DNA from: a virus
Direction: 5' to 3' (one strand)
Virus record (IMG/VR): IMGVR_UViG_3300050821_011653
Span: 1-23,045 of that record
Length of the DNA stretch: 23,045 bases
Below the pieces are notes generated by a model. That model was not told where the DNA came from, ran no database searches, and worked only from the letters and a program-made list of their open reading frames with translations. The first letter of the stretch is position 1. Every line of letters begins with the position of its first letter. The translations under genes were made by a program, and so were the position numbers. Positions 4,386 to 23,045 of the stretch are shown here, piece by piece.

Positions 4386-4667
4386 TTGGAAGTTTGCTTA
4401 CTGTCCTTGGAGGAAGCAGGCAGATTGGAGCATTGGGGAATTTGGCCCAAGTGCAAAGCGCATCATCATTTGAAGCAGGCAGCTGCTCGTGAAGGTGCTG
4501 AAGCTGGCTTATACAGATTTCTAGGCGGCGAAGGTACGAAGATACAGGGAACAGTAAGCATGGTGGTGCCTGTAGCAGAATCTATGTGGAAACCTGTACA
4601 AGCACGAAATACAGATGGCTCAGTAGTCATCGGTCTACGTGTTTGGGGGTTGGCTCCGTCCAGATGA
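4386..4667 (+). CDS. Small orphan domain related to the C-terminus of the adjacent GIY-YIG protein (93 aa)
   Basis: The start is TTG at 4386, five bases after GGAGG; an in-frame TAG at 4371 and the absence of ATG leave little alternative. Residues 16-30 (H-W-G-x-W-P-x-C-K-x-H-x-H-x-K) match residues 161-175 of the next protein at ten positions, and both are preceded by a D/E-rich helix and followed by a beta segment. The conserved Cys and His suggest a metal-binding or DNA-binding module. The TGA overlaps the next ATG (ATGA). It could be a stand-alone DNA-binding subunit or the remnant of a second endonuclease. Function is unknown. Confidence 0.6.
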   Translation: MEVCLLSLEEAGRLEHWGIWPKCKAHHHLKQAAAREGAEAGLYRFLGGEGTKIQGTVSMVVPVAESMWKPVQARNTDGSVVIGLRVWGLAPSR

Positions 4668-5353
4668 ACGAGCGTGGATTTGTCTATTCCATCTACAATT
4701 TACTACGTAGTAAAGAATACGTAGGCGGGACTGGTTTACGAACGCCGGATTTACGTTGGAATCAACATATTCATGCTGCTGAGCGCGGTAGTGAACTTCC
4801 CATTCATTGTGCTTTACGGAAGTATGGTGTATCTGCCTTCAAGTTCAGTGTAATTTGGGAAGGTTCGTTGATTGATGTAGGTAGTAAAGAAACACAATTC
4901 ATTGTAGAACGTAATACACTGGTCTTCAATGGATACAACTTACGGTCCGGTGGTGAAGGCTTTATCACTACGGAAGAAACAAGGCGTTTGATCAAACTGA
5001 ACGCGGACAGACGCGGTGTTGAGCCTTTAGTAATATTTCCTGAGTTAGAGTTTAGTAACGTACTTGCTAAGTTGAAGCGTAAAGGTGGTGCGCAGGGTGG
5101 TAAGCTGTGTTTGATATCAGATGTTGAAAAGAACAGATTGATTCATTGGGGTGAGTGGCCCTGTTGTAAACATCACAGGCATATAAAGCGTAAAGAGGCC
5201 CTCGTTGGACCTTATCAGTTTATTCAGTCTAGAGATGGCACGCGATTGCCGATGGTAGTACGCTTGATAAATGTTTCTGGGTGGATTACGAAGGAAGCTA
5301 TGAGTACTATACCTGGAAATGTATTTGCCGATCACGGCACACATCGTATTTAA
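4664..5353 (+). CDS. GIY-YIG family endonuclease, probably a free-standing homing endonuclease
   Basis: The 229-aa protein starts at the ATG overlapping the previous stop. Residues 5-95 form a GIY-YIG nuclease: F-V-Y at 6-8, Y-V-G at 19-21, R31-x3-H35, metal-binding E76 (K-E-T-Q-F-I-V-E) and N92 (G-Y-N-L-R-S-G-G-E-G). These match the family's catalytic Arg, Glu and Asn. Residues 100-150 are a linker, and 150-205 carry the H-W-G-x-W-P-x-C-K-x-H-x-H module shared with the 4386 protein, probably for target recognition. The gene and its partner are AT-richer than the terminase genes. Its position between replication and packaging blocks, beside a tRNA, is typical of mobile endonucleases. The target is unknown. 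Confidence 0.85.
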   Translation: MNERGFVYSIYNLLRSKEYVGGTGLRTPDLRWNQHIHAAERGSELPIHCALRKYGVSAFKFSVIWEGSLIDVGSKETQFIVERNTLVFNGYNLRSGGEGFITTEETRRLIKLNADRRGVEPLVIFPELEFSNVLAKLKRKGGAQGGKLCLISDVEKNRLIHWGEWPCCKHHRHIKRKEALVGPYQFIQSRDGTRLPMVVRLINVSGWITKEAMSTIPGNVFADHGTHRI

Positions 5354-5606: not shown

Positions 5607-5640
5607 TAGTTTAGGGAGTGGCGATTGAGAGTGAAGCGAA

Positions 5641-5658
5641 GCGAGTAACGTTACTCGC
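5641..5658. promoter_or_regulatory. 18-bp perfect palindrome upstream of the small terminase gene
   Basis: GCGAGTAACGTTACTCGC is identical to its reverse complement. It lies 103 bases before the terminase start in a non-coding stretch. A dyad of this length with no loop suits binding by a dimeric protein (repressor, or a terminase start/pac-type site) more than an RNA hairpin. No second copy was seen. Confidence 0.5.
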
Positions 5659-5760
5659 ACAGACTTAGCATTGCAAAGTCATCCAGCGACTTCACGGGCC
5701 ACCATTGCAGGACGAGGCAAGCCTGCTCGCGATAACAAACAAACATCAAGGAGATACAGC

Positions 5761-6429
5761 ATGGCCACCGCTAAGAAGCGAGGCGCGCCAGCGTCAGCTT
5801 CAAAGGCGGAGCGCCCATCTCGTGTAATACGACAGCTGGCAGGAAAACTCGCTCGAGAGAATAGACGTAAAGTAAATTCAGAGGAATACAGAGCCGGTCG
5901 CGAAGCATTGAAAGATGCAGCGAAGAGAGTTGCTCCAGCATCTGATGTTAAGAAAGATGGTCGTGTATTTGAGATAACTCCTGAATTGGTAGCGGAGTTT
6001 GAAGATGCTGTAATTCTTGGTGTACCTGTGAGTGAGATTGCTCAGCGTGACAACTTCCCTTCAGAAGTAACTTTGTGGAGACACATAGCGAACGAACAAT
6101 CTGAAATCTGCAGGGCATACGCGCGTGGGAAACAGATCGCAGTAGCCAAGCGCGAAGAGCTGATAGAAGAGATTGCACGGACGCCGCAAACAGGTGTCAT
6201 CACTGTTCGTGGTCAGCGCGTTACGGCGGACGGAGATGTTGTAGACGTAGTCGAGCATAAGGAGTACGACATGCTCGGTCACCGGCAATTACTGATTGAC
6301 ACTCACAAGTGGGCGCTAGCGCACATCAAGCCTAAGAAGCACGGCCGACAGCCTGAGACCGGATCCGGAGGCGTTACACCGCAGTTACAGGCACTCTTCG
6401 ACTCCCTGAAGTCAGGACCGGCAGAATGA
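5761..6429 (+). CDS. Terminase small subunit (Sf6-like)
   Basis: The 222-aa protein starts at ATG 5761 with AAGGAG upstream; in-frame codons further upstream (to 5671) lack a site and look non-coding. Residues about 72-125 form a helix-turn-helix (L-G-V-P-V-S-E-I-A-Q-R-D ... S-E-V-T-L-W-R-H-I-A) followed by the R-A-Y-A-R-G-K oligomerisation helix, the layout of Sf6 gp1-type small terminases that recognise the packaging start. The N-terminal 60 residues are basic and disordered. The C-terminus has D-T-H-K-W-A-L-A-H-I-K-P-K-K, also typical. Placement two genes before the large terminase agrees. A K-D-A motif (51-53) resembles joints in downstream proteins. Confidence 0.85.
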   Translation: MATAKKRGAPASASKAERPSRVIRQLAGKLARENRRKVNSEEYRAGREALKDAAKRVAPASDVKKDGRVFEITPELVAEFEDAVILGVPVSEIAQRDNFPSEVTLWRHIANEQSEICRAYARGKQIAVAKREELIEEIARTPQTGVITVRGQRVTADGDVVDVVEHKEYDMLGHRQLLIDTHKWALAHIKPKKHGRQPETGSGGVTPQLQALFDSLKSGPAE

Positions 6430-6647
6430 AGCTACAGGTGTGCTTCCCATGGTTCAAGCTAGATTGGTCGCGACTGCATATTAAGTTTGTTCGCGTTTAC
6501 GATCGTTGTAACTGCGGTAGTTACAAGCTTCATCCAGAGCACCAACATTTTCGTTTTCACAGGCACTATCGCACACTAACAGCTAGTGATGGTTTCATTA
6601 TTGACTTCTGGCTGTTGGAGTTCTCCATAGGTTGGTGGTTGGAATGA
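6426..6647 (+). CDS. Small aromatic-rich hypothetical protein (73 aa)
   Basis: The start overlaps the terminase stop as ATGA, and the stop overlaps the next start in the same way, so translation is probably coupled on both sides. The protein is rich in Trp, Phe, Tyr and His and has C6, C29 and C31. No transmembrane segment or known domain is evident. Coding is supported mainly by the overlaps. Confidence 0.55.
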   Translation: MKLQVCFPWFKLDWSRLHIKFVRVYDRCNCGSYKLHPEHQHFRFHRHYRTLTASDGFIIDFWLLEFSIGWWLE

Positions 6648-6904
6648 AGAACGGAACCGTTAGAATGGTGGAGAGCTTAGGTGGCGGTGGACGACAGGTA
6701 ACCGTCATCGGTCGTGAACGTCACGATGGACAAACGTTCTACAGGGTGGCGGAGATACCGGGAGCGCTGTTCCTCAATTCCAGCTTGTTCGTCCCCAAGC
6801 CTGAACACATCACGGCTCCTTGTGAAACCTGCGGTGCTGCGTATGGACGACCATGCAGCTATAAGGGACGGCGTGCGCATTATCGCAACGGACCGGCTAG
6901 ATGA
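6644..6904 (+). CDS. Small protein with C-terminal zinc-finger motif (86 aa)
   Basis: The ATG at 6644 overlaps the previous stop, and the TGA overlaps the large terminase start. Residues 1-55 look beta-rich (R-Q-V-T-V-I-G-R-E-R ... T-F-Y-R-V-A). Residues 60-82 carry C-x2-C-G-A-x4-R-P-C-x7-H-x2-R, a compact Cys3His finger common in small phage DNA-binding proteins. Its position between the small and large terminase genes suggests a packaging accessory, but that is inference. Confidence 0.7.
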   Translation: MKNGTVRMVESLGGGGRQVTVIGRERHDGQTFYRVAEIPGALFLNSSLFVPKPEHITAPCETCGAAYGRPCSYKGRRAHYRNGPAR

Positions 6905-8175
6905 GCACCCTGGACGCAGTTCTCGATCCGCAGCAAGTAATCATGAAGCCGTTTGGGCGCAAGGCGCATTCGTTCATCATGCGTCCGCCCAAGCTGGACA
7001 AGAAGTACACCATCGCCGAGGGCTCGGTACGTAGTTCCAAGACCTTCATGGCTGACGCCAAGCTGATTACACAGTACAGTCACTACGAGGTACCGGGTAA
7101 GCGCTTCATTGCCGGCGTCAGTAAGGAGACCGTCCATCGCAACATGCTGATCGACCTATTCGGTATTGTAGGTCGCGACAACTACAGCTACAACATGGCT
7201 ACCGGCGAGATGTGGTTGTTCGGTAAGCAGTACTTCGTTGTAGGAGCGCGTGACGAAGCCGCGTACAAGAAGATTCTAGGTTCGACTATCGGCCTATTCA
7301 TCGGCGATGAAATCGTAGAGTTTCCCAAGTCGTTTCTAGCGCAAGTCTGGATGCGTATGTCGCCTGACGGCGCGCGCTTCTTAGGTACTACCAACCCGGG
7401 AAATCCGTACAGCTACCTGAAGTCCGAAGTCATCGACATCTTCCCGTCGGATAAGCTGGAGGTCATCCACTTTACCCTGGATGACAATCCCAATATTTCA
7501 CCTGATGCTAAGTCCGACATCATCGCGTCGCAAACCGGTGTCTTCCGGCTACGCTACATCGATGGTCTTTGGGTGGTAGCGGAAGGTTCTATCTACCGCG
7601 ATAGTTGGGACGACAAGCTGAACACTTACGACGACCCTCCGACGCCGTTACTTAGCCCGGGAGGACGTGGTGGGTACGTCGATCATTGGTTCTCGATTGA
7701 CGCTGGCGTGGATCACCCGCAGGTTCACCTGGAGTTCTACGATGATGGTGACACTATATGGTGCACGCGGGAGCAGGTGTGGGATAGCAAGCTGGAGCGC
7801 CGTCAGAAGACGGATGGACAGTACTCCGAGGATTTGAAGGCGTTCGGAGCTCTAGGCTGCGAAGTACGCGTTCCGCCGGAAGCTGCGTCGCTTAGAGCTC
7901 AGCTACTACTGGATGGGTTCTGGGTAGTAGATGCTGACAACTCCGTGGCCGAGGGTATACACACTGTTTCTACTCTTCTCTCACGCCGCATGCTGAAGAT
8001 CAGCAAGTCCGGCTGTCCGCGTCTTTGTAAGCGCATACCGACCTACGCGTGGGACGATAAGGCCTCACGACGCGGCGAAGAGCAGCCGCTCAAGAAGGAA
8101 GACGACGAGCCTGACGCCCTGCGGTACGGCGTACATGGAAAGATCCCGGTGTGGCGCGTGAAGGGGGAGAATTGA
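6901..8175 (+). CDS. terL: Terminase large subunit (ATPase-nuclease)
   Basis: This is the motor that pumps DNA into the prohead and cuts it. In 424 aa it has Walker A G-S-V-R-S-S-K-T at 41-48 (Ser where Gly is usual before Lys), Walker B G-L-F-I-G-D-E at 131-137, the coupling motif G-T-T-N-P-G-N-P at 162-169, and RNase H-like nuclease acids D267 (S-I-D-A-G) and D402/D405 (D-D-E-P-D-A-L-R). Length and motif spacing fit the PBSX/Terminase_3-6 group. ATG at 6901 overlaps the previous TGA. The first bases after the start share 21 of 23 positions with the start of the 10954 gene. Confidence 0.95.
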   Translation: MSTLDAVLDPQQVIMKPFGRKAHSFIMRPPKLDKKYTIAEGSVRSSKTFMADAKLITQYSHYEVPGKRFIAGVSKETVHRNMLIDLFGIVGRDNYSYNMATGEMWLFGKQYFVVGARDEAAYKKILGSTIGLFIGDEIVEFPKSFLAQVWMRMSPDGARFLGTTNPGNPYSYLKSEVIDIFPSDKLEVIHFTLDDNPNISPDAKSDIIASQTGVFRLRYIDGLWVVAEGSIYRDSWDDKLNTYDDPPTPLLSPGGRGGYVDHWFSIDAGVDHPQVHLEFYDDGDTIWCTREQVWDSKLERRQKTDGQYSEDLKAFGALGCEVRVPPEAASLRAQLLLDGFWVVDADNSVAEGIHTVSTLLSRRMLKISKSGCPRLCKRIPTYAWDDKASRRGEEQPLKKEDDEPDALRYGVHGKIPVWRVKGEN

Positions 8176-10581: not shown

Positions 10582-10957
10582 TAACAACGTTCCTTCCATC
10601 GACATGCAGAAGTGGGGCGACCGCGCCGCCATGCCCGACGAAGTCCAGGCCTACGCGCGGGGACCGATTCCGCACTCGCTCCACAAGCCAATCGCCATCC
10701 GCGTGGAGGAGTTCGAGATACGGATGTTGTACGCCGCGCAGCAGGGTGAATGCGATCCGGACGCTTACAACCAATTTCTGTTGGAGCGCTTCAAGCACGC
10801 CGGAGCTCCGGTGGAAGGTATCATCAAGCTGCGTCTGGCGCACGGCGCTGTCTGCAAGGTGAAGACCAACCACTTGGAACCGCAAACCTTCTTCCAATAC
10901 CTCTGGATACCGGCCGAGTACGCTCATGCAATTGCTCAGGCAGGAGTAACTCATTGA
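10568..10957 (+). CDS. Hypothetical structural-region protein (129 aa)
   Basis: ATG 10568 has AGGAGG six bases upstream. The protein has an N-terminal disordered part, a helical middle (I-A-I-R-V-E-E-F-E-I-R-M-L-Y-A-A-Q-Q-G-E-C-D-P-D-A-Y-N-Q-F), and a C-terminal part ending F-F-Q-Y-L-W-I-P-A-E-Y-A-H-A-I-A-Q-A-G. I do not recognise a family. Its TGA overlaps the TTG start of the next gene. Confidence 0.7.
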   Translation: MPTSDNNVPSIDMQKWGDRAAMPDEVQAYARGPIPHSLHKPIAIRVEEFEIRMLYAAQQGECDPDAYNQFLLERFKHAGAPVEGIIKLRLAHGAVCKVKTNHLEPQTFFQYLWIPAEYAHAIAQAGVTH

Positions 10958-11862
10958 ATCGTGCTCGCGCTCATCGTGCCCTGGACGCGGTTCTCGATGC
11001 GAGGAGTACTGCGGTATTGCTTGAAGAGTATCGCGGCTTCAAGATTAAGCGTGCTGCGCGGTCAGAGTCAAGTGGTAAAGGTGCGGTGATTGTCGAAGGT
11101 CTTTCTAACCGTCCTCGTTACTTCACTTATTGGTCAGAAGATGGCGCTGTACAGCTAGCCAAACAAGCTATTGACAAGCATCTTGGCAATGCGAAAGACA
11201 TGCGCACGCGTCCTTCCGAGCGCATCAGCAATCCCTGTCCCTACTGCGACAACGACCACGACCCGTCCATCCAGTGCCGCAACGTGCAGGGTCCGCAGGG
11301 ACTTCTGAATCCGCGTCCGAAGAAACCTACCAAGGACGCCATCCAGCACATCGCCGTAGAGCCAATCACCGGCTCCTTGAGGACGCGCGTCAAGTACGGA
11401 GAGAACACGGCCGAACGTGCCGGCTTCGCTAGTCCTAAGAAAGCGCAGCGCTGGGGCGAAAGCACCATGGCGAAGCTTGAGAAGCAAGCCAACGCAGCGC
11501 CAAAATTTCGTTCCTGGAAGATAGCTCCGCAGTCCAATACGGCTGCGCCTTGTCCGAAGTGCGGCCAACAGATGGCTCTGGTCGAAGGCCGCATTGCCGC
11601 GCATACTCGTCCTTGGCTCTACGGAGTGCAGAAGAACTTCAAGGTGGATCCGGCTAACAAGAAGTATCAGTGCAAAGGTAGTGGACAAGAGCCGGTTACA
11701 GCGATTGCGACGGATGCACCAGGCGATTCCACAGCTTACAAAGGTTACCTGATCATAGAACTGCGTGGCGGCGGATTCTGTATTAAGAAGGATGGATACA
11801 CGATACAGAACCACACCGGCAGCGTAGTCAGTGCGAAAAGCATAATCGATCAGTTGGTGTAA
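10954..11862 (+). CDS. Mosaic protein with duplicated Y-K/R-G domain and two zinc-ribbon-like motifs (302 aa)
   Basis: The start is TTG 10954, in a TTGA overlap with the previous stop and seven bases after AGGAG; upstream in-frame codons only shadow the previous gene. Residues 24-77 (E-E-Y-R-G-F-K-I ... A-K-Q-A-I-D-K-H-L) and 261-302 (A-Y-K-G-Y-L-I-I ... A-K-S-I-I-D-Q-L-V) look like two versions of one small alpha/beta domain. Between them are C95-x2-C98...C108 and C200-x2-C203...C240, zinc-ribbon-like, and a joint K-P-T-K-D-A-I followed by V-E-P-I (135-138). The P-K-K-P-T-K-D-A string is also at the end of the 19284 protein. Function is unknown. Confidence 0.7.
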   Translation: MNRARAHRALDAVLDARSTAVLLEEYRGFKIKRAARSESSGKGAVIVEGLSNRPRYFTYWSEDGAVQLAKQAIDKHLGNAKDMRTRPSERISNPCPYCDNDHDPSIQCRNVQGPQGLLNPRPKKPTKDAIQHIAVEPITGSLRTRVKYGENTAERAGFASPKKAQRWGESTMAKLEKQANAAPKFRSWKIAPQSNTAAPCPKCGQQMALVEGRIAAHTRPWLYGVQKNFKVDPANKKYQCKGSGQEPVTAIATDAPGDSTAYKGYLIIELRGGGFCIKKDGYTIQNHTGSVVSAKSIIDQLV

Positions 11863-14819: not shown

Positions 14820-16844
14820 GTGGCATTACCACGTAAGAACTTCAGTCGTCGCACCAAACCCTCCTTCACCGAGCAAGCTGTAGCCAAGGGCCTCCAGGGC
14901 AAGACCGACCCACGCATGGCGTCGGTCATGGACTACTTTACTAACGCACCGGCTCGTATGGGCTTCGGCACTCCGTCTTTGGCTGAAGGCGCGTCGTACG
15001 AACTAATTCGGTTCAGTTATGATTACTGGATGCTCATCACGCTGTATCGTAATCACTGGATCAGTCGGCGCATCATCGACACGCCTGCCAACGATATGGT
15101 CAAGGCTTGGCCCAAGCTTACTAGCGATATCACGCCGGAAGACATCACCAAGGTGGATCGTGTAATCCGTCGTACCGGCACCAAGGCGCAAATGCTCACC
15201 GCTATGAAGTGGGCACGGCTATTCGGTGGAGCCGGTGCGCTAATCGCCATCAAGGGGCATGAGAAGGAGCTGGACCAGCCATTGGACTTGGACACCGTCG
15301 AGATCGGCGGGTACCAAGGGCTGATTCCGTTCGATCGCTGGGCTGGAATCAATCCTGATGGCGAAATCTGTACGGACATGGGACGTCCGCTGGACTTCTC
15401 TAAGCCGGAGTACTACAGCGTGCGCGCTAATGGTGGAGAAAGCTTCCGCGTACACAGCACGCGCATTCTACGTTTCCTAGGTCCTACTGTACCTACGCCT
15501 GAAGTCGAAGCGCAGACATGGTGGGGTATTTCTGTCCTGGAACCTATCTACGAGGCCATCCGCAAGCTGGATAACATGTCCTGGAATATCCTGAGCCTCA
15601 CGTTCAGGGCTAACATTCTAGGCATGAAGTTCCCGGATCTAGCATCTTTGCTTTCCGGACTAGGTTCATCGCAAAAAGCGTCGCAGAACTTCGAGACGCG
15701 TATGTCGGCTGTTAATCACCTGATAAGTAATCAATCGCTGGTTCCGTTGCCGGCCGAAGGGTCCATAGAATCCACGGCATACACATTCGGCGGACTCAGT
15801 GATGTGTATCAGCAGTTCCAGCTTGATCTTTCCGGCGGTTCCGGCATCCCGGTTACGCGCCTGTGGGGACGCACCATCACGGGCCTCGGACAGTCCAACG
15901 ACGCCGACGAGCGTATCTACGAGGAAAAGATTGCACAAGATCAGTCCACGGACATGGTACCGCAGCTTGAGAAGCTGTATCCCGTCGTATGCATGTCGGA
16001 ATTGGGTGAAGTACCGGACGACCTCGATCTTACCTGTCCGTCCGTTCGCGTTCTGGATGAAAAGGAGAAGGCCGAGCTGGCCAAGTCTGTCGCGGATACG
16101 GTAACCGTGTACATGAATGGCGGCATCATGTCGCCGCAGATTGGTGCGAAGGAAGTCAAGCAATCCAGCGACGCTACCGGCATTGGTACTAACCTTACAG
16201 ACGAGTTCATAGCCACGCTCAGTAATAAGGTACAGAGCGAGGGTGAACTCGGAGAAGGCTTGTTCGGTGAAGAATCCGGTGGCGAGCCGCAGCTGGAAGC
16301 CGCTAGCGGTCCGCAGAAAGTTCTTCGCGAGATGGGCAAGGAGAAACAGGAGCAGGAACCTGCACCTACATCCAAGGTCAAGGGTAAAGCCGCAGACTCT
16401 GACGGCGCTGGGCCGGAGCGCGAAGTACATGGATTCAAGGTAGTCATTGAGACGCCCAAGGGATATCCGCGTCACGGACTTACGCCGGACGGTAAGAAGT
16501 GGAGTCAAGTACTTCCGTATGACTATGGCTACTTCAAGGGAATCGAAGGAGCCGATGGTGACAGCCTGGACATCGCACTGGGCGACGATCCGTCGTCGGA
16601 CTGGGTCTACGTCTTCGATCAATCGACACTCGGCAAAAAGGCATCCTTCGACGAGTCCAAGGTATTCATGAACTTCGCGACGCAGGGCGACGCCTTGCGT
16701 GCGTTCAAGGCCGGACATCACAAGGCCGAAGAAGTGTTCATGGATTTCACGCCTATGCCTATAGGCGAGTTCAAGGCATGGCTGGCCTCGGCTAACCTGC
16801 ATCAACCTTGCGGTGATGAACTTACGGGGACGTTACCTGTATGA
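14820..16844 (+). CDS. Portal protein (DUF1073) with C-terminal inorganic-pyrophosphatase-like domain
   Basis: GTG 14820 has AAAGGAGG upstream. Residues about 55-480 form a DUF1073-type portal, the ring through which DNA is packaged: S-Y-D-Y-W-M-L-I-T-L-Y-R-N-H-W-I-S-R-R-I-I-D early, and L-W-G-R-T-I-T-G-L-G-Q-S-N-D-A-D-E-R-I-Y near 348-367. After a disordered Glu/Lys/Pro linker, residues 537-656 are an InPase-type domain as described for phage polyvalent proteins: I-E-T-P-K-G-Y-P-R-H-G, W-S-Q-V-L-P-Y-D-Y-G-Y, G-A-D-G-D-S-L-D-I-A-L-G, V-F-D-Q, D-E-S-K-V, F-K-A-W-L. At 674 aa it is longer than plain DUF1073 portals. The acidic D-G-D-x2-D core suggests retained metal binding; activity is unproven. 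Confidence 0.88.
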   Translation: MALPRKNFSRRTKPSFTEQAVAKGLQGKTDPRMASVMDYFTNAPARMGFGTPSLAEGASYELIRFSYDYWMLITLYRNHWISRRIIDTPANDMVKAWPKLTSDITPEDITKVDRVIRRTGTKAQMLTAMKWARLFGGAGALIAIKGHEKELDQPLDLDTVEIGGYQGLIPFDRWAGINPDGEICTDMGRPLDFSKPEYYSVRANGGESFRVHSTRILRFLGPTVPTPEVEAQTWWGISVLEPIYEAIRKLDNMSWNILSLTFRANILGMKFPDLASLLSGLGSSQKASQNFETRMSAVNHLISNQSLVPLPAEGSIESTAYTFGGLSDVYQQFQLDLSGGSGIPVTRLWGRTITGLGQSNDADERIYEEKIAQDQSTDMVPQLEKLYPVVCMSELGEVPDDLDLTCPSVRVLDEKEKAELAKSVADTVTVYMNGGIMSPQIGAKEVKQSSDATGIGTNLTDEFIATLSNKVQSEGELGEGLFGEESGGEPQLEAASGPQKVLREMGKEKQEQEPAPTSKVKGKAADSDGAGPEREVHGFKVVIETPKGYPRHGLTPDGKKWSQVLPYDYGYFKGIEGADGDSLDIALGDDPSSDWVYVFDQSTLGKKASFDESKVFMNFATQGDALRAFKAGHHKAEEVFMDFTPMPIGEFKAWLASANLHQPCGDELTGTLPV

Positions 16845-16963: not shown

Positions 16964-17184
16964 ACATACACCTTAACAAACGTCAGCGGCAGCTGCTTCG
17001 CTTGCTACTGTTGGGTATGAGCAACGATTCGATCGCGAAGGAGGTCGGATTGTCTATGAACGCCGTGAAAAATCACATTTTTCAGCTTTGCGACGCCACC
17101 GGTCAAGGAAGTCGTACGGAGTTGGTATTGTGCGTGTTGAACGACGAACCGCTCTTGACGCAGGTATACGCATGCGTCCGGTAA
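16960..17184 (+). CDS. Stand-alone LuxR/GerE-type helix-turn-helix protein (74 aa)
   Basis: GTG 16960 lies in a GTGA overlap with the membrane peptide gene. Residues 5-58 are a LuxR-type DNA-binding domain: L-N-K-R-Q-R-Q-L-L-R-L-L-L-L-G-M-S-N-D-S-I-A-K-E-V-G-L-S-M-N-A-V-K-N-H-I, with the usual G-x-S-N-x-x-I-A and T/N-V-K-x-H-I elements. There is no receiver or ligand-binding domain. It probably binds DNA as a dimer and could regulate phage or host genes. Its place inside the head operon means it is made late. Confidence 0.75.
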   Translation: MNIHLNKRQRQLLRLLLLGMSNDSIAKEVGLSMNAVKNHIFQLCDATGQGSRTELVLCVLNDEPLLTQVYACVR

Positions 17185-18824
17185 CGCAGTCGCGCATCGG
17201 TGAGGATGGACGCTGCTTTCCGGCATGTATAGCTTCCATCCTGGAACTATCTGAGGCTAGTGTCCCGGACCTGGACAACACCAACGAGCAACAGGTCAAC
17301 GCATTTCTAGCGCCGTACAACCTGCGTTACCAAGAGATTCCCATCACGGACGACTCGCCAATTCCGGTAGGTTATCACGTAATCTGCGGCGTCAGTCCGC
17401 GCGGCGGGATGCACGCGGTGGTGGGTAGGGACGGCGCGTTTGCACACGACCCGCACCCAATTAGCGACGATCCGCGTCGCGGCGTGGTGAAGCCGCTGAG
17501 GTGGGGCTTGTTGATCCCTGCTAATGACCAGCCAAATTTTAAGGCGTTGGATACTAACATTACATCACGCTTCATTAAAGGTCGTGGTGTTGAAGGTGGG
17601 TGGGTACCTGAGACTGGCGGTAAGGTAAACGTAAAACTTGATGGAAAGAAGATAGGTGAGGCTGGAGTTGCCAAAGTACGTGGCTCAAATGCTTGGCGTA
17701 TTACAACTGCACGCGTAAACCCAAGTCTTGTTGGCAAGGGTTTTGGTAAGCATCTTTATACGGAACTTGTTAAACAAGCTGCTACTCATGGCATCACCGA
17801 ATTAGTAAGCACAGACAAGCATAGGTCTCCTGGTGCTGAGCATGCGTGGCAGCAATTGGCAAAGACGCATGGTGCTGTAAATGAAGACGGCGTATGGCGT
17901 GTAAAGGCAAAGGACGCTGGAGAAATGCGAACTGGATTACCGACGATCGCGCCTATAAAGGACGCCCGTCCTCCGCTGTATGATTGGTCGCCGAAAGACG
18001 CGCCCAACCTGCGCGCCATCATTTCCAATCTCAAGGCAACGGTGCAGATGATTGAGTCCGCCCAGCCGCTCACGCCGGAGCGTCAACGCGAGGCCGACGG
18101 CTATAAGGCCGAGATCAAGGAATGGGAACGATTGTTGGCCAAGTGCGGGGTAATGGAGCGGCGCGGAGGGAAGGACGCGGAGCCGTGGAACGACGCCGAT
18201 ACCAGTAGGTATCGTGTAGAAGTGGAACGTAGATTCAAAGAACGTACACCGCCACAACGTCCTGACGAAGTATTGTGGGAATCTCGTGTAATGCGCGGAG
18301 AGATGCGTAGTTGGGCACAACAAGTACTTGGAAAGCTTCCGCCGGAAAGTGATGAGCGTTGGCTTAATCAGCATGGTACGTGGTACCAGTCAATGGCCAA
18401 GCGTTATGATCCTTCGGCTGTAAAGAAGCGCAAGGCAAAGGATCGCGCCGACATGATGGCGCTTCGTCGCAACACGCAGAGACAAGGCGGACCGTTCCAC
18501 GTGCAGCTCACCGAACCGGACGGCATGGAGCACACCGCCTCCGTCAAGGCACTGCGTGCGTACGACGCAGTATGTCGCGGTTGCGGGAATCCACTTCCTA
18601 TTCGTGCGCAATACTGTGAGACGTGCAAACGTAACGGCAAAGCGCCTTCGTACGACGCTGTCGATCCCATCCCTCCCTACCGTCCAGGCGATGTAATCAA
18701 ACTAGCCAATGGCAAGCGCACCACGGTGAAGACCTGTACGCTGGGCGAGAACTTGTTTCACGAGCCGGAGTGGCACGTACTCACCGCTTCCGGCGACGTC
18801 GTAACCGTCAAAATGCGCGGGTAG
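17172..18824 (+). CDS. Mosaic multidomain protein: C39-like peptidase, GNAT acetyltransferase, zinc ribbon, SH3-like
   Basis: The start is ATG 17172, inside the end of the HTH gene; the upstream frame is shadow. Domains of the 550-aa protein: 1-110 a C39/papain-like peptidase with C15 (G-R-C-F-P-A-C), H81 (G-G-M-H-A-V-V-G) and D93 (H-D-P-H-P); 148-245 a GNAT fold with V-N-P-S-L-V-G-K-G-F-G-K-H-L (182-195); 265-330 a helical coiled coil; 345-415 a Trp-rich helical part; 441-500 with a zinc ribbon C468-x2-C471...C482-x2-C485; 501-550 an SH3-like barrel. Joints hold A-K-D-A (247-249), A-P-I-K-D-A (260-265), G-K-D-A, A-K-D-R and V-D-P-I (497-500). The GNAT and 340-420 parts are AT-richer. The stop codon lies within the tRNA that follows. 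Confidence 0.75.
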   Translation: MRPVTQSRIGEDGRCFPACIASILELSEASVPDLDNTNEQQVNAFLAPYNLRYQEIPITDDSPIPVGYHVICGVSPRGGMHAVVGRDGAFAHDPHPISDDPRRGVVKPLRWGLLIPANDQPNFKALDTNITSRFIKGRGVEGGWVPETGGKVNVKLDGKKIGEAGVAKVRGSNAWRITTARVNPSLVGKGFGKHLYTELVKQAATHGITELVSTDKHRSPGAEHAWQQLAKTHGAVNEDGVWRVKAKDAGEMRTGLPTIAPIKDARPPLYDWSPKDAPNLRAIISNLKATVQMIESAQPLTPERQREADGYKAEIKEWERLLAKCGVMERRGGKDAEPWNDADTSRYRVEVERRFKERTPPQRPDEVLWESRVMRGEMRSWAQQVLGKLPPESDERWLNQHGTWYQSMAKRYDPSAVKKRKAKDRADMMALRRNTQRQGGPFHVQLTEPDGMEHTASVKALRAYDAVCRGCGNPLPIRAQYCETCKRNGKAPSYDAVDPIPPYRPGDVIKLANGKRTTVKTCTLGENLFHEPEWHVLTASGDVVTVKMRG

Positions 18825-18956: not shown

Positions 18957-19268
18957 ATGGCACTCATTCCCACCTCCGCATTTACTCCAGACGCCAGCGT
19001 CGGGTGCTCCGCCGGTCCTACGGCCGCAGCAGTGCTGCTTCCTGGCACTCCCGCCAGCGACACCACGCTACGTGTTACCAATATTGGCAATAACCCGGTA
19101 GGCGTCAAACTCGGAACGTCCAGCGCCGTGACATGCACTATGAGCACCGGCCTGGTCGTGATGCCGGGTCAGACTGAGTACCTGGGCATCGGCGCGAATA
19201 CCTACTTGGCGCTTTGCACCGGAGCACCGGGCACGTCCAGCAGCGTCAACCTCACCACCGGCAACTAA
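18957..19268 (+). CDS. Small beta-sandwich structural protein (103 aa)
   Basis: ATG 18957 follows a purine-rich AAGGAGAAAGG stretch at somewhat long spacing. The protein is Thr/Gly/Val-rich (L-R-V-T-N-I-G-N-N-P-V-G-V-K-L-G-T-S ... V-V-M-P-G-Q-T-E-Y-L-G-I-G-A-N-T-Y-L-A-L-C) and looks like one beta sandwich, as in capsid decoration or tail-associated proteins. It is the first gene after the tRNA. The specific family is not recognised. Confidence 0.65.
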   Translation: MALIPTSAFTPDASVGCSAGPTAAAVLLPGTPASDTTLRVTNIGNNPVGVKLGTSSAVTCTMSTGLVVMPGQTEYLGIGANTYLALCTGAPGTSSSVNLTTGN

Positions 19269-19283
19269 GAGAGGACTATCGCA

Positions 19284-21695
19284 ATGCCCTTGCTCAAAGG
19301 CAAAGAGAACATAGGCAAGAATATCAAGACTGAAGAAGAGCATGGCAAGCCTAAGAAGCAGGCCATTGCGATAGCGCTGCACACCGCCGGAGTACCCAAG
19401 GCGAAAGACGCTGACGACGAGGAAACCAAGAGAATACAAAATCGTTACAGCGATCTACGCGGGCGATCCACACAGGATTTGAAATCGATAATGCAGCGTT
19501 ATCACAAGATCATAGATCTTCGTGAGGCTACCAAATCCACTTTGTGTTGGGACATCTTACGCGCCGAGTTCGGTGATAAGAAGATCGATGCCTATCTATC
19601 CAGTAAGTCCAAGGATGCCGTCCTTCCCATCGGAGACGACCACGAAGAGGAGGGCTTCGAGCATCACGCCTCGCGTCCGCGCCAGCCGCTGAAACCCTAC
19701 GACGACGTCGCGGATGTCCGGCCCATTCCGACGGATACCAAGGTCGCGTTGGCCAAGCACAATGCTGGGCTCACCAAGTCGCAGGACCGACGTACGAGGG
19801 ACGCAGAGTTAAACATTGGCGACAAAGTTCACCTTGGTTTCGGTACGAAAGGTGGCGCTGGCTTTGAAGGCGTAGTTACAAAGATTGAAGGTGATACGGT
19901 GTACATCAAGAATAATGAAGGTCGTACGTTCAAGGGACCGCTGAAGTCAGTTACCAAAGCGAACGACGTAGACCTCGTCCAACCCATCCGTGTGGACCCG
20001 GTCCCGACGCCGTCCGGGGAGCACAACGAGCGCGGTTGGTTCGCGGACGGGAGGGACGAAATGGATGATGCGCAGCGACTGAAGAATATCAAGTCGACGC
20101 TGGTATACTTGCGCAAGAAGTACGATGCTTGCCTTCAGCGTGGCGACCGCTACGGCGCGCAGGAGAAGGAGAAGGACATTCGCACCTGGCTCAGCGAGAA
20201 GGAGTCCGTGGAACGCCGCATCGCGCAATCAAAGGCCAAGGACGTATCCGCCCTCGCCCCCAAGGCCGAGCAGTTCGAGAACGGCGCGCGCGTGCACAAC
20301 TCTCGCGGCAGCGTGGGCGAAGTGGTTCACGTCCAGGGCAACAAGGTGATCGTCGCCGTTGGCGGCAGGCGCGAGGAGTGGCCGCTGGCCAAGACGTTCC
20401 GCGCGGCTGGGGCGGAGGACTCTTCGGAGAATGAAAGTTACGCTAGCGAAGAGCTGATTGAAGTCGAAGAGTATTACACCAAAATCTCGAAAGATCCGAA
20501 GGCTACTGCTAAGCAGAAATCAGATGCTCTTAATGATTTCAAGGCAGCACAGGCAGCATGGCGTCGTGCGAAAGCGCAAGCGGGAGCGGAGGATGTACTC
20601 CCCATCGGCGAGGACGCCACCAACCCGAATCCCAATCCACGCGTACTGACCAGTTTCGCCGCGCCGTCCAAGGAGGACGTCCAGCGCATCTACGGAAAGA
20701 AGACCACGCCGGAGGGATTCAAGAAGCAGTTCGGGAAGGACGCCGCGCCGCCACCCAAAGGTACTTACCTGGAGTTTGAAAAGAAGCCTGGACAATTCTT
20801 CAAGATCACAGCTAAAACTAACGCACAGTACGACGCACAGTACGACGCAGCAGTCAAGAAGGCTGGATTGTATAAGAAAGGTGAGGAGTACCCATGGTTC
20901 ACTGTCTATATTGACGGTGAGGAATCTGGCGGAGGTGGCGGTCGTAACTCTGGCGAAATGAAAGACGGCTACGCCGAGACTTACGCCGCTGCGCGCAAGA
21001 AGACCGGACAAGTAAGGCCCATCCCGTTGGGTCCAGCGCCGGAGCCCGAAGCGCTGAAGGAAGTGGAGCGTCGAGCGCAGGACGACGTAATTACTCCGAA
21101 GCAGAAAGCGGTCGTGGACAAGGTCTACGCCATGCTTCGCGAGGCGCACATCCCAACACGAGAAATTCGACGTACCACTGTCGAACAGACTGTGATGGAA
21201 GGCCATACGGCAAAAGAAATATTCACTTGGATCAAACAATCTTTCGATGATGAACAGGTAAATGACTCCGAAGTGAAACCCATCCGCGTCAATCCCGCGC
21301 CGATGGCCAAGCTGATTCCGCGCAGCAAACGACCGGCGAAGGATACGGTGCCAGCCGGCAATGCGCTCATGCGTAGCGGTGGTAAGTTGGAAATGGACGG
21401 TAAGTTCAAGGCTGCTCTTGCTGAGTACAAGAAGGCGCTGGAAGCGTTCAAGAAAGAGCGTGACAAGACTGGTCAGCGTGACGCCGAGCAAGCCATTTAT
21501 GAGATGGAACGTAAGGCTAAGCACGGCGAACACTTTGGCGCATTCGACACACATCCAGTGATTGAGAAGTACAATGCTGCGCGACAGGCTGAGTCAGAAG
21601 CTGAGCTAAAGAAGAACGGCTCTAAGTGGAATGAGCAGCACTATCCTAAGAAACCGACGAAGGATGCCGTACTTCCCATCCCGGTAGGAGCGTAA
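19284..21695 (+). CDS. Giant mosaic linker-repeat protein, possible polyprotein (803 aa)
   Basis: ATG 19284 follows AGAGAGG. Residues 1-38 match a small phage module (K-x-x-I-G-K-N-I-K-T-E-E-E-H-G-K-P-K-K-Q-A-I-A-I-A-L). Then come separate units: helical 46-105; SH3-like 174-225 (L-N-I-G-D-K-V-H-L-G-F); helical 259-318; SH3-like 329-376; helical 386-432; beta 490-545; helical 600-656; TPR-like 695-750. Seven V-x-P-I motifs (113, 145, 232, 438, 577, 665, 796) and several K-D-A/V sites (111-112, 319-321, 485-487, 793-795) lie between units. Domain bodies are mostly AT-richer than joints. It directly precedes the DUF2213 protease. It may be cut during head maturation; that is inference. The function of each unit is unknown. 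Confidence 0.75.
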   Translation: MPLLKGKENIGKNIKTEEEHGKPKKQAIAIALHTAGVPKAKDADDEETKRIQNRYSDLRGRSTQDLKSIMQRYHKIIDLREATKSTLCWDILRAEFGDKKIDAYLSSKSKDAVLPIGDDHEEEGFEHHASRPRQPLKPYDDVADVRPIPTDTKVALAKHNAGLTKSQDRRTRDAELNIGDKVHLGFGTKGGAGFEGVVTKIEGDTVYIKNNEGRTFKGPLKSVTKANDVDLVQPIRVDPVPTPSGEHNERGWFADGRDEMDDAQRLKNIKSTLVYLRKKYDACLQRGDRYGAQEKEKDIRTWLSEKESVERRIAQSKAKDVSALAPKAEQFENGARVHNSRGSVGEVVHVQGNKVIVAVGGRREEWPLAKTFRAAGAEDSSENESYASEELIEVEEYYTKISKDPKATAKQKSDALNDFKAAQAAWRRAKAQAGAEDVLPIGEDATNPNPNPRVLTSFAAPSKEDVQRIYGKKTTPEGFKKQFGKDAAPPPKGTYLEFEKKPGQFFKITAKTNAQYDAQYDAAVKKAGLYKKGEEYPWFTVYIDGEESGGGGGRNSGEMKDGYAETYAAARKKTGQVRPIPLGPAPEPEALKEVERRAQDDVITPKQKAVVDKVYAMLREAHIPTREIRRTTVEQTVMEGHTAKEIFTWIKQSFDDEQVNDSEVKPIRVNPAPMAKLIPRSKRPAKDTVPAGNALMRSGGKLEMDGKFKAALAEYKKALEAFKKERDKTGQRDAEQAIYEMERKAKHGEHFGAFDTHPVIEKYNAARQAESEAELKKNGSKWNEQHYPKKPTKDAVLPIPVGA
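19620..21680 (+). repeat. Dispersed V-x-P-I linker repeats encoded in the mosaic gene
   Basis: Seven in-frame copies begin at about 19620, 19716, 19977, 20595, 21012, 21276 and 21669. They commonly follow an acidic or K-D residue and precede a Pro/Gly/Asp-rich stretch such as I-R-V-D-P-V-P or I-P-L-G-P-A-P. At DNA level they share GTN-CNN-CCC-ATC-like cores but are not long exact repeats. Similar joints occur at about 11356, 17946 and 18660 in two other genes. Confidence 0.6.
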
Positions 21696-21699
21696 GCCG

Positions 21700-23045
21700 A
21701 TGCGCGGATATTTCACAACTCCTCTTTCTGAGCATCTGGAGGAAATGCCGAATGGCACGCTGATTGCGCGTGACTGCGTTATTGCACGCACCGGATTCCA
21801 GACTTACAAGGTCAGCGATCTTCCGCAGGAAGCTGCTCGAGACATGGGCGTGGATTTGTCCAATCCCAATGCAGAGATTGATCTTTACCGTCCAGCGGAG
21901 GAAGTATTTCACCCGGATACGTTGAAGTCTGCTGAGGGTCAGGCAGTCACCGACAACCACCCTCCGGAATTTGTAGATCCGGAAAATTTCACGGAGTACT
22001 CGCGCGGTCACTTGCAGAATGTACGTAAGGGCAAGGAGCCGATGGATTCCGGTGATTGGCCGATGATTGCAGACATCATCATCGCGGCCGAACCTCTTCT
22101 GTCCAAGGTTAAGAATAAGCAGGCGCGAGAACTTAGTCTTGGCTACGACTATGCCATTGCCAAGGACGGCGACCGTATCAATCAGACGGACATGGTGATT
22201 AATCACCTCGCTGTTGTGCCGAAGGGTCGTGCGGGTCCAGAAGCTCGTATCATGGACGCTGCACCGGAAGCAGTTTTAGAACCACCTGCGCCGCCCGCCG
22301 TTGAAAGGGCGGCGACGTCGTCAACCTCAACCGCAGTACCAACCAAGAAGGAGATTAAACCTGTGGCAAACATCTTTAAGCAGTTGCTGGGTCTCGGGCT
22401 GAAAAGCTACGCGGCCGACGCAACTCCAGAAGAGTTGGCGACGGCGGTGGAGGCAATGAACCAACCGTCCGCGAGCAATCGTGCTCGAGCCAATGATGGA
22501 GAGGGTGAACCGGAATCCCTTGCCGAGCTGGATAGAGCCAAGCAGCGCGACAAAGGCAAGGCCAAGGACAAGCGTGCTAAGGACGATCTAGGCGATCCGC
22601 CGGACGAAGACGTTGAGCCGCCAGCCGTGGATGCCGGGCGCAAGAAGATGCACGACGCGCTGGACGCCATGATGGATCGCAAAGGCAAGGATGCCGACAT
22701 GACCGAACTTCGTGCCCTTCTCGATGAATATCTCGGCGAAGAACAGGAAGAGCCGGAGCATGCGGATGTTGCCGCTGGCGACGTTGGCGCACTGGAGCAG
22801 GTTATCAACAAGGAGACCGACGCTGCTGATAGTGAAACCTGTCCCGAGTGCGGACTTGGTGATGCTGAGTGTGAGTGCGAAGACGTCGAGGGCGAACCGG
22901 GCGAGGAAGAAGTGGAGTCTGGCGAGGAAGAGCTCGAAGACGCCGCTGCGCGCGACGGTAAGGCCAACGATCGCGGACGTGCTCGCGACGCGGCTATTGC
23001 CGGCTCCTTGGCTACGCTGAAGGTACTGCGTCCGTTCGTCGCTCG
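21700..23045 (+). CDS. DUF2213 prohead protease with scaffold-like C-terminus (partial)
   Basis: ATG 21700 starts five bases after the previous stop; 448 codons are visible before the window ends. Residues 1-185 match DUF2213, with probable catalytic His in T-D-N-H-P-P-E (H87) and Ser in R-E-L-S-L-G-Y-D (S146), the H and S-x-G arrangement of HK97-type (S78-like) prohead proteases, then I-N-H-L-A-V-V-P-K-G-R-A-G. Residues 220-448 are highly charged, helical and low-complexity, like a scaffold, with C381-x2-C384...C391-x-C393. A strong internal start at 22363 could make the scaffold part alone. The major capsid gene would be expected just beyond. Confidence 0.85.
   Translation, partial: MRGYFTTPLSEHLEEMPNGTLIARDCVIARTGFQTYKVSDLPQEAARDMGVDLSNPNAEIDLYRPAEEVFHPDTLKSAEGQAVTDNHPPEFVDPENFTEYSRGHLQNVRKGKEPMDSGDWPMIADIIIAAEPLLSKVKNKQARELSLGYDYAIAKDGDRINQTDMVINHLAVVPKGRAGPEARIMDAAPEAVLEPPAPPAVERAATSSTSTAVPTKKEIKPVANIFKQLLGLGLKSYAADATPEELATAVEAMNQPSASNRARANDGEGEPESLAELDRAKQRDKGKAKDKRAKDDLGDPPDEDVEPPAVDAGRKKMHDALDAMMDRKGKDADMTELRALLDEYLGEEQEEPEHADVAAGDVGALEQVINKETDAADSETCPECGLGDAECECEDVEGEPGEEEVESGEEELEDAAARDGKANDRGRARDAAIAGSLATLKVLRPFVA
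22348..22365 (+). promoter_or_regulatory. Internal ribosome binding site and GTG start for a nested scaffold protein
   Basis: AAGGAG at 22348-22353 is nine bases before the in-frame GTG at 22363 (residue 222, V-A-N-I-F-K-Q-L-L-G). The site sits exactly at the junction of the protease and the scaffold-like part and is better than the gene's own start site. It parallels the lambda C/Nu3 arrangement. Confidence 0.5.

Follow-up and report, generated by a model that had tools for sequence, protein, structure and literature searches.

The Alt and internal proteins of phage T4, DarA of phage P1, and the ejection proteins of phage SPN3US all pass into the prohead, have a piece removed by the head protease, and can later be ejected along with the DNA. 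Each is a single protein that loses a leader. In the locus described here, by contrast, one precursor would yield many products.

Polyvalent proteins are found in phages and conjugative elements, and the authors who described them likened them to viral polyproteins (PMC5512222). Like the protein studied here, they are multi-domain polypeptides (2–15 distinct domains) that are mosaic between relatives and encoded among portal and head genes (Iyer et al. 2017, PMC5512222). We analyzed a 23,045-nucleotide fragment of an uncultivated virus (the window) that contains genes for TerS, TerL, a MuF-type protein, a portal-InPase fusion, proteins of 578, 103, and 803 residues, and a DUF2213 protein. The InPase domain is fused to the portal as in BcepF1 (PMC5512222). 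The 803-aa protein is a variant of the polyvalent and internal head proteins, and is new as a variant. Searches of Pfam, PHROGs, and NCBIfam found in it no recognizable effector domain, no domain of the published polyvalent set, and no embedded peptidase, a feature that is common but not universal in polyvalent proteins. Its cassettes are very small (about 40–110 aa) and are separated by a repeated linker, and the joint resembles the predicted site of the protease encoded by the next gene.

The gene order matches that of other systems pairing DUF2213 (PF09979) with a PF09950 capsid protein, including SEN34, Mulock, and E217, except that here cassette genes are kept ahead of the DUF2213 gene. 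The closest stand-alone counterpart is gp21 of the Pbunavirus E217, a Pseudomonas phage. This 68-aa phrog_2423 protein is homologous to the N-terminal module of the 803-aa protein and continues with TAKD but, unlike it, has no further cassettes.

Results

Architecture of the 803-aa Protein

The reading frame proved to be exactly as first called (Table 1), as did its seven V-x-P-I motifs, at aa 113, 145, 232, 438, 577, 664, and 796. Composition-preserving shuffles gave a mean of 0.13 such motifs, so recurrence by chance was rejected; a reading of the protein as a simple tandem repeat was rejected as well. The original prediction had named K-D-A as a second recurring linker element and had described the linker as constant. 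Four copies of K-D-A are present (aa 41, 110, 485, and 793), but the wider pattern, which the first reading had missed, is x-x-D-[ASTV], an Asp with Ala, Ser, Thr, or Val as the usual next residue. V-x-P-I is constant in this protein, but the joint peptide varies across phages (VLPVP, LEPIP, and ALPLP elsewhere). An Asp lies within about five residues ahead of V-x-P-I in all motifs except that at 577. It falls mostly within x-x-D-[AVS], and other joints are marked by x-x-D-[ASTV] sites as well. The core of the linker in the cassette array can be written x-x-D/[ASTV]..VxP[IVL].

Table 1. Coordinates of predicted features in the window
Position	Strand	Feature	Remark
10750..11862	+	Third gene: KPTKDA linker and Zn-ribbon-like unit; counterpart of the 267-aa gene of relative G001	Start position uncertain
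16386..16401	+	Predicted site KAAD526/S, junction of portal and fused InPase domain	Identical in G001
17088..18824	+	Second cassette gene, 578 aa: conserved head domain (phrog_5845), GNAT, other cassettes	
19284..21695	+	Cassette protein, 803 aa	ATG start
19284..19409	+	N-terminal module, aa 1–42, phrog_2423; ends AKD/A	Sole part common to 10/10 homologues
19410..19616	+	Helical cassette, aa 43–111; SKD/A end, then VLPI	Low to moderate model confidence
19617..19802	+	Linker and short HNAGLTKSQD unit, aa 112–173 (VLPI, VRPI)	Like units in L033, L047, L048, G001
19803..19967	+	SH3/Tudor-like cassette, aa 174–228; TRD/A and AND/V either side	
19968..20243	+	VQPI linker and helical-hairpin cassette, aa 229–320; AKD/V end	
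20244..20420	+	Second SH3-like cassette, aa 321–379; GC3 0.90	Common to G001 and L033
20421..20594	+	Helical-hairpin cassette, aa 380–437; GC3 0.43; AED/V end	
20595..20741	+	VLPI linker and short cassette, aa 438–486 (IYGKKTTPEGFKKQFGKD)	Present in L063 too
20742..21011	+	Beta-containing cassette, aa 487–576	Low-confidence model
21012..21266	+	VRPI linker and three-helix cassette, aa 577–661; VND/S end	
21267..21344	+	VKPI linker, aa 662–687; AKD/T end	
21345..21665	+	TPR-like cassette, aa 688–794; TKD/A end	Divergent copy of a cassette in 7 other homologues
21666..21692	+	C-terminal tail AVLPIPVGA	Other members' ends alike (KDALPLPVKVTK, RDGKEVRPV, KDSREVLPV)
21700..23045	+	DUF2213 protein, predicted head maturation protease/scaffold	Runs off window
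22246..22266	+	Predicted release site past protease domain, IMD186/AAP	

An AlphaFold2 model built from a nine-row alignment (pTM 0.32) gave confident islands at aa 1–39, 181–226, 262–320, 328–372, 383–433, 600–660, and 704–785, with pLDDT below 50 between them. The low-confidence stretches make up 40% of the residues and hold all seven V-x-P-I motifs (p = 0.0015) and 11 of the 15 x-x-D-[ASTV] sites (p = 0.009). The proposed chain of small separate domains is what the model shows, small folds with disordered linkers between, and a single continuous fold was rejected. SH3/Tudor-like barrels were the best local matches in a PDB fold search with the model, all at E > 0.001. The phrog_2423 profile matched aa 1–42 (E = 5e-10) and also matched each of the eight homologues scanned.

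Cassette Exchange among Related Phages

Direct searches of IMG/VR with the 803-aa and DUF2213 proteins of the window returned no matches, and relatives were reached through a portal search, then a homologue search, then a search with a capsid alignment. The portal search led to a 105-kb relative, G001, whose portal is 72% identical and which encodes a 523-residue homologue of the 803-aa protein at the same gene position. The capsid search yielded 57 loci from uncultivated phages, giving ten distinct homologues (504–975 aa) including that of the window. Scanning genomes with the capsid alignment turned up no relative from which a host could be assigned. A weak tblastn match in phage Tunturi_3 was rejected: it is out of frame with the annotated gp128, which is no cassette protein.

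If the protein had captured its domains singly, homologues should gain and lose cassettes as units, as the original prediction had it. Comparison of the homologues bore this out; whole cassettes have been acquired, dropped, copied, or relocated, and rather than sharing one full-length sequence the proteins differ in cassette sets and order. All ten start with the same module of about 40 aa, followed by different sets and orders drawn from a shared stock. The first SH3-like cassette of the window (aa 172–224, 53 aa) is 72% identical to aa 38–90 of the L058 protein, at a different position. Between L058 and L026 the N-terminal module is 92% identical and the next common cassettes 88–96%, while the stretch between them differs, a swap whose flanks are 92–96% identical. 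L033 and L036, which are near-identical phages, differ only in a tandem duplication of a 71-aa cassette. Within L026, the cassette at aa 106–163 of the 975-aa protein is 64% identical to one in the same phage's cysteine-protease-like gene.

Plain BLAST alignments ran on through the linkers, so we tested block boundaries with tighter gap settings. In a test chosen after seeing the data, ends of shared blocks lay no more than 6 aa from x-x-D-[ASTV] in 99 of 239 cases, against 69 expected from shifted controls (p = 0.001). Cassettes have been swapped, copied, and relocated from one gene to another, and the joints fall at the linkers. Modularity and the sharing of linkers are established by these comparisons.

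Compositional Mosaicism and Linker DNA

Domain bodies had been described as AT-richer than the joints, a contrast that survives only weakly (GC 0.58 in joints, 0.55 in bodies). At third codon positions, GC content (GC3) ranges from 0.43 to 0.90 across the cassettes of the 803-aa gene (chi-square p = 2e-10, or 1e-5 with equal windows). The neighboring portal (p = 0.79), TerL (p = 0.17), and DUF2213 (p = 0.82) genes have no such heterogeneity. The GC3 contrast is weaker in the relatives, where heterogeneity also extends to two DUF2213 genes. The DUF2213 genes of L047 (7366-9177) and L048 (6588-8231) have strong internal GC3 heterogeneity (p = 4e-8 and 3e-6), and because of it their C-terminal halves may perhaps have taken up foreign segments as well.

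The linkers are also alike at the DNA level. The core GTNNNNCCCATC occurs eight times in the window against 0.5 expected, with six copies in the 803-aa gene and one in the 578-aa gene, where it encodes part of the linker DAVDPIPP. All seven V-x-P-I prolines use CCC, which accounts for 15% of the phage's Pro codons (a test again chosen after seeing the data). Other phages each have their own nearly constant linker DNA. Such near-constancy within a genome is consistent with linkers having been copied recently or having served as recombination points, and the linker DNA may serve as short homology for cassette capture.

Other Cassette Genes and Neighbors

The head domain of the 578-aa protein is labeled "cysteine protease" in an Acinetobacter phage annotation. 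Relatives of this gene range from 117 aa (the head domain alone, in L062) to 600 aa and show the same cassette behavior as the 803-aa gene; the gene itself is a GC3 mosaic (p = 2e-9).

Several other genes were seen in passing. The cassette gene at L063:5900-7549 has a large internal tandem duplication comprising a linker and two cassettes. Between the portal and cassette genes of the 105-kb relative (L003:15439-19692) lies a gene for a protein of 1417 aa in which an imperfect repeat of about 50 aa recurs many times (e.g., VAPVQLAFQYPAPWQFEQDEPSTLSGQPDEDFW); the window has no counterpart. L003 also has, upstream of its MuF gene (5638-6939), a gene with an ADP-ribosyltransferase exoenzyme domain (PF03496) and ATD/A near its N-terminus, which resembles T4 Alt in position and possible processing. 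The 103-aa protein directly before the cassette gene in the window (18957-19268) is kept in relatives (103–105 aa) and had no PHROG match. By eye, a frame at 4586-5353 of the window resembles a GIY-YIG homing endonuclease, and a similar-looking frame lies 3' of the capsid gene in another phage (L028:9646-10446).

The DUF2213 Protein and a Shared Aspartate Site

The DUF2213 gene matched the PF09979 profile at E = 2.5e-36. Residues H87, S146, and H169 are invariant across sets of 12 and 23 sequences, in the His/Ser/His order of assemblin/S78-type serine proteases, and we infer that they form the catalytic triad. A model of the protein (pLDDT 88) had no significant fold match in the PDB, and structure search revealed no known protease fold. 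The DUF2213 profile had no significant match to HK97 gp4 or T4 gp21; hhalign with HK97 gp4 aligned only the SxG motifs (E = 0.14). The protease role is thus predicted from PHROG labels, gene order, and the conserved H/S/H residues. The papers retrieved gave no site specificity for DUF2213.

Sites resembling the linker Asp recur in other head proteins. When the 111 predicted proteins of G001 were ranked by excess of [ATS]-x-D-[AST], the top three were the 803-aa homologue, the DUF2213 protein, and the product of the 267-aa cassette gene; L047 and L063 had no excess of this strict form. The Asp of IMD186, at the end of the DUF2213 domain, is invariant in the 12 sequences and nearly so in the 23. 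The capsid protein has FD/[AT] at its N-terminus in all relatives listed, and its Asp is invariant in nine PF09950 capsids.

Two solved capsids bear on whether such sites are processed. The E217 capsid protein, gp25, reads AMD64/S65, and the cryo-EM map leaves residues 1–65 unresolved (PMC10329688). The capsid protein of XM1, a distant phage, reads FKD30/E31, and its first 30 residues are unseen in the structure, although the XM1 authors propose a different protease (PMC10457771). The putative Asp site thus matches the processing boundaries of both, D64/S65 and D30/E31. Since the SPN3US prohead protease cleaves after A-x-E (PMC10052503), A-x-D is a plausible variant under an analogous P3-x-P1 rule. 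The x-x-D site is short and degenerate enough for single sites to arise by chance, and one, D733, lies within a predicted helix.

Discussion

We favor, at slightly better than even confidence, the view that the 803-aa protein is a cassette polyprotein that enters the prohead, where the head protease splits it into small products. The gene would be an expandable array, with a fixed N-terminal module followed by small independent domains on disordered linkers. The linker Asp would be the P1 residue for the DUF2213 head maturation protease of the next gene. The precursor would enter the prohead, probably by way of its N-terminal module, and the protease would cut it at the linkers while trimming the capsid protein and itself. 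The freed small proteins would remain in the head, leave with the DNA, and act early on the host. Cleavage at the linkers is suggested by the coincidence of the motif with domain and processing boundaries, and head entry and ejection by gene position and the T4 Alt and SPN3US precedents.

The main rival is a polyvalent protein packaged and injected whole, its linkers serving as flexible joints or recombination points that are never cut. Cassettes on disordered linkers fit such a protein, and the virion RNA polymerase of phage N4 is packaged uncut (PMC5512222). We nevertheless think it unlikely, since the linkers have a specific Asp signature in common with the capsid protein, head protease, and portal-InPase junction, and this signature is concentrated in proteins of the head cluster.

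A second rival is an internal scaffold or core protein, whose D-sites would let the protease degrade it so that it exits the prohead and whose cassettes would be filler with no host function. Many cut sites are typical of scaffolds, the 803-aa gene adjoins the protease/scaffold gene, and in phage Pa193 the capsid vertices retain a segment of the DUF2213 protein (PMC11042391). A scaffold that determines shape would not be expected to consist of folded, exchangeable domains of differing base composition, to include Zn-finger-like and GNAT cassettes, or to turn over so fast, and we consider this reading improbable. Least probable of all is that V-x-P-[IV]-P is a docking motif tying cassettes to the capsid or scaffold surface, like cargo-loading peptides, with cleavage secondary or absent: the motif does end the chain in several members and in the 267-aa protein of G001, where a cut would free few residues, but its VxPI part is missing from L074 and differs between phages, and the preceding Asp is conserved more widely and shared with non-cargo proteins.

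We also advance a bolder proposal, tentatively and with somewhat less than even confidence. A double-stranded DNA phage would here have a true polyprotein strategy for its injected proteins. An open-ended array of swappable effector cassettes would be spread over two or more head-cluster genes, and the constant linker on either side of each cassette would act both as a cut site for the head protease and as DNA homology for capturing further cassettes. Many small virion-delivered proteins could then be read from sequence by cutting such arrays at their x-x-D linkers. The proposal also makes a definite prediction of where the widespread DUF2213 head proteases cut, one that would extend to cultured phages such as E217. 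It suggests, too, that phages may gather injected proteins singly, with no need to equip each addition with its own promoter or targeting signal.
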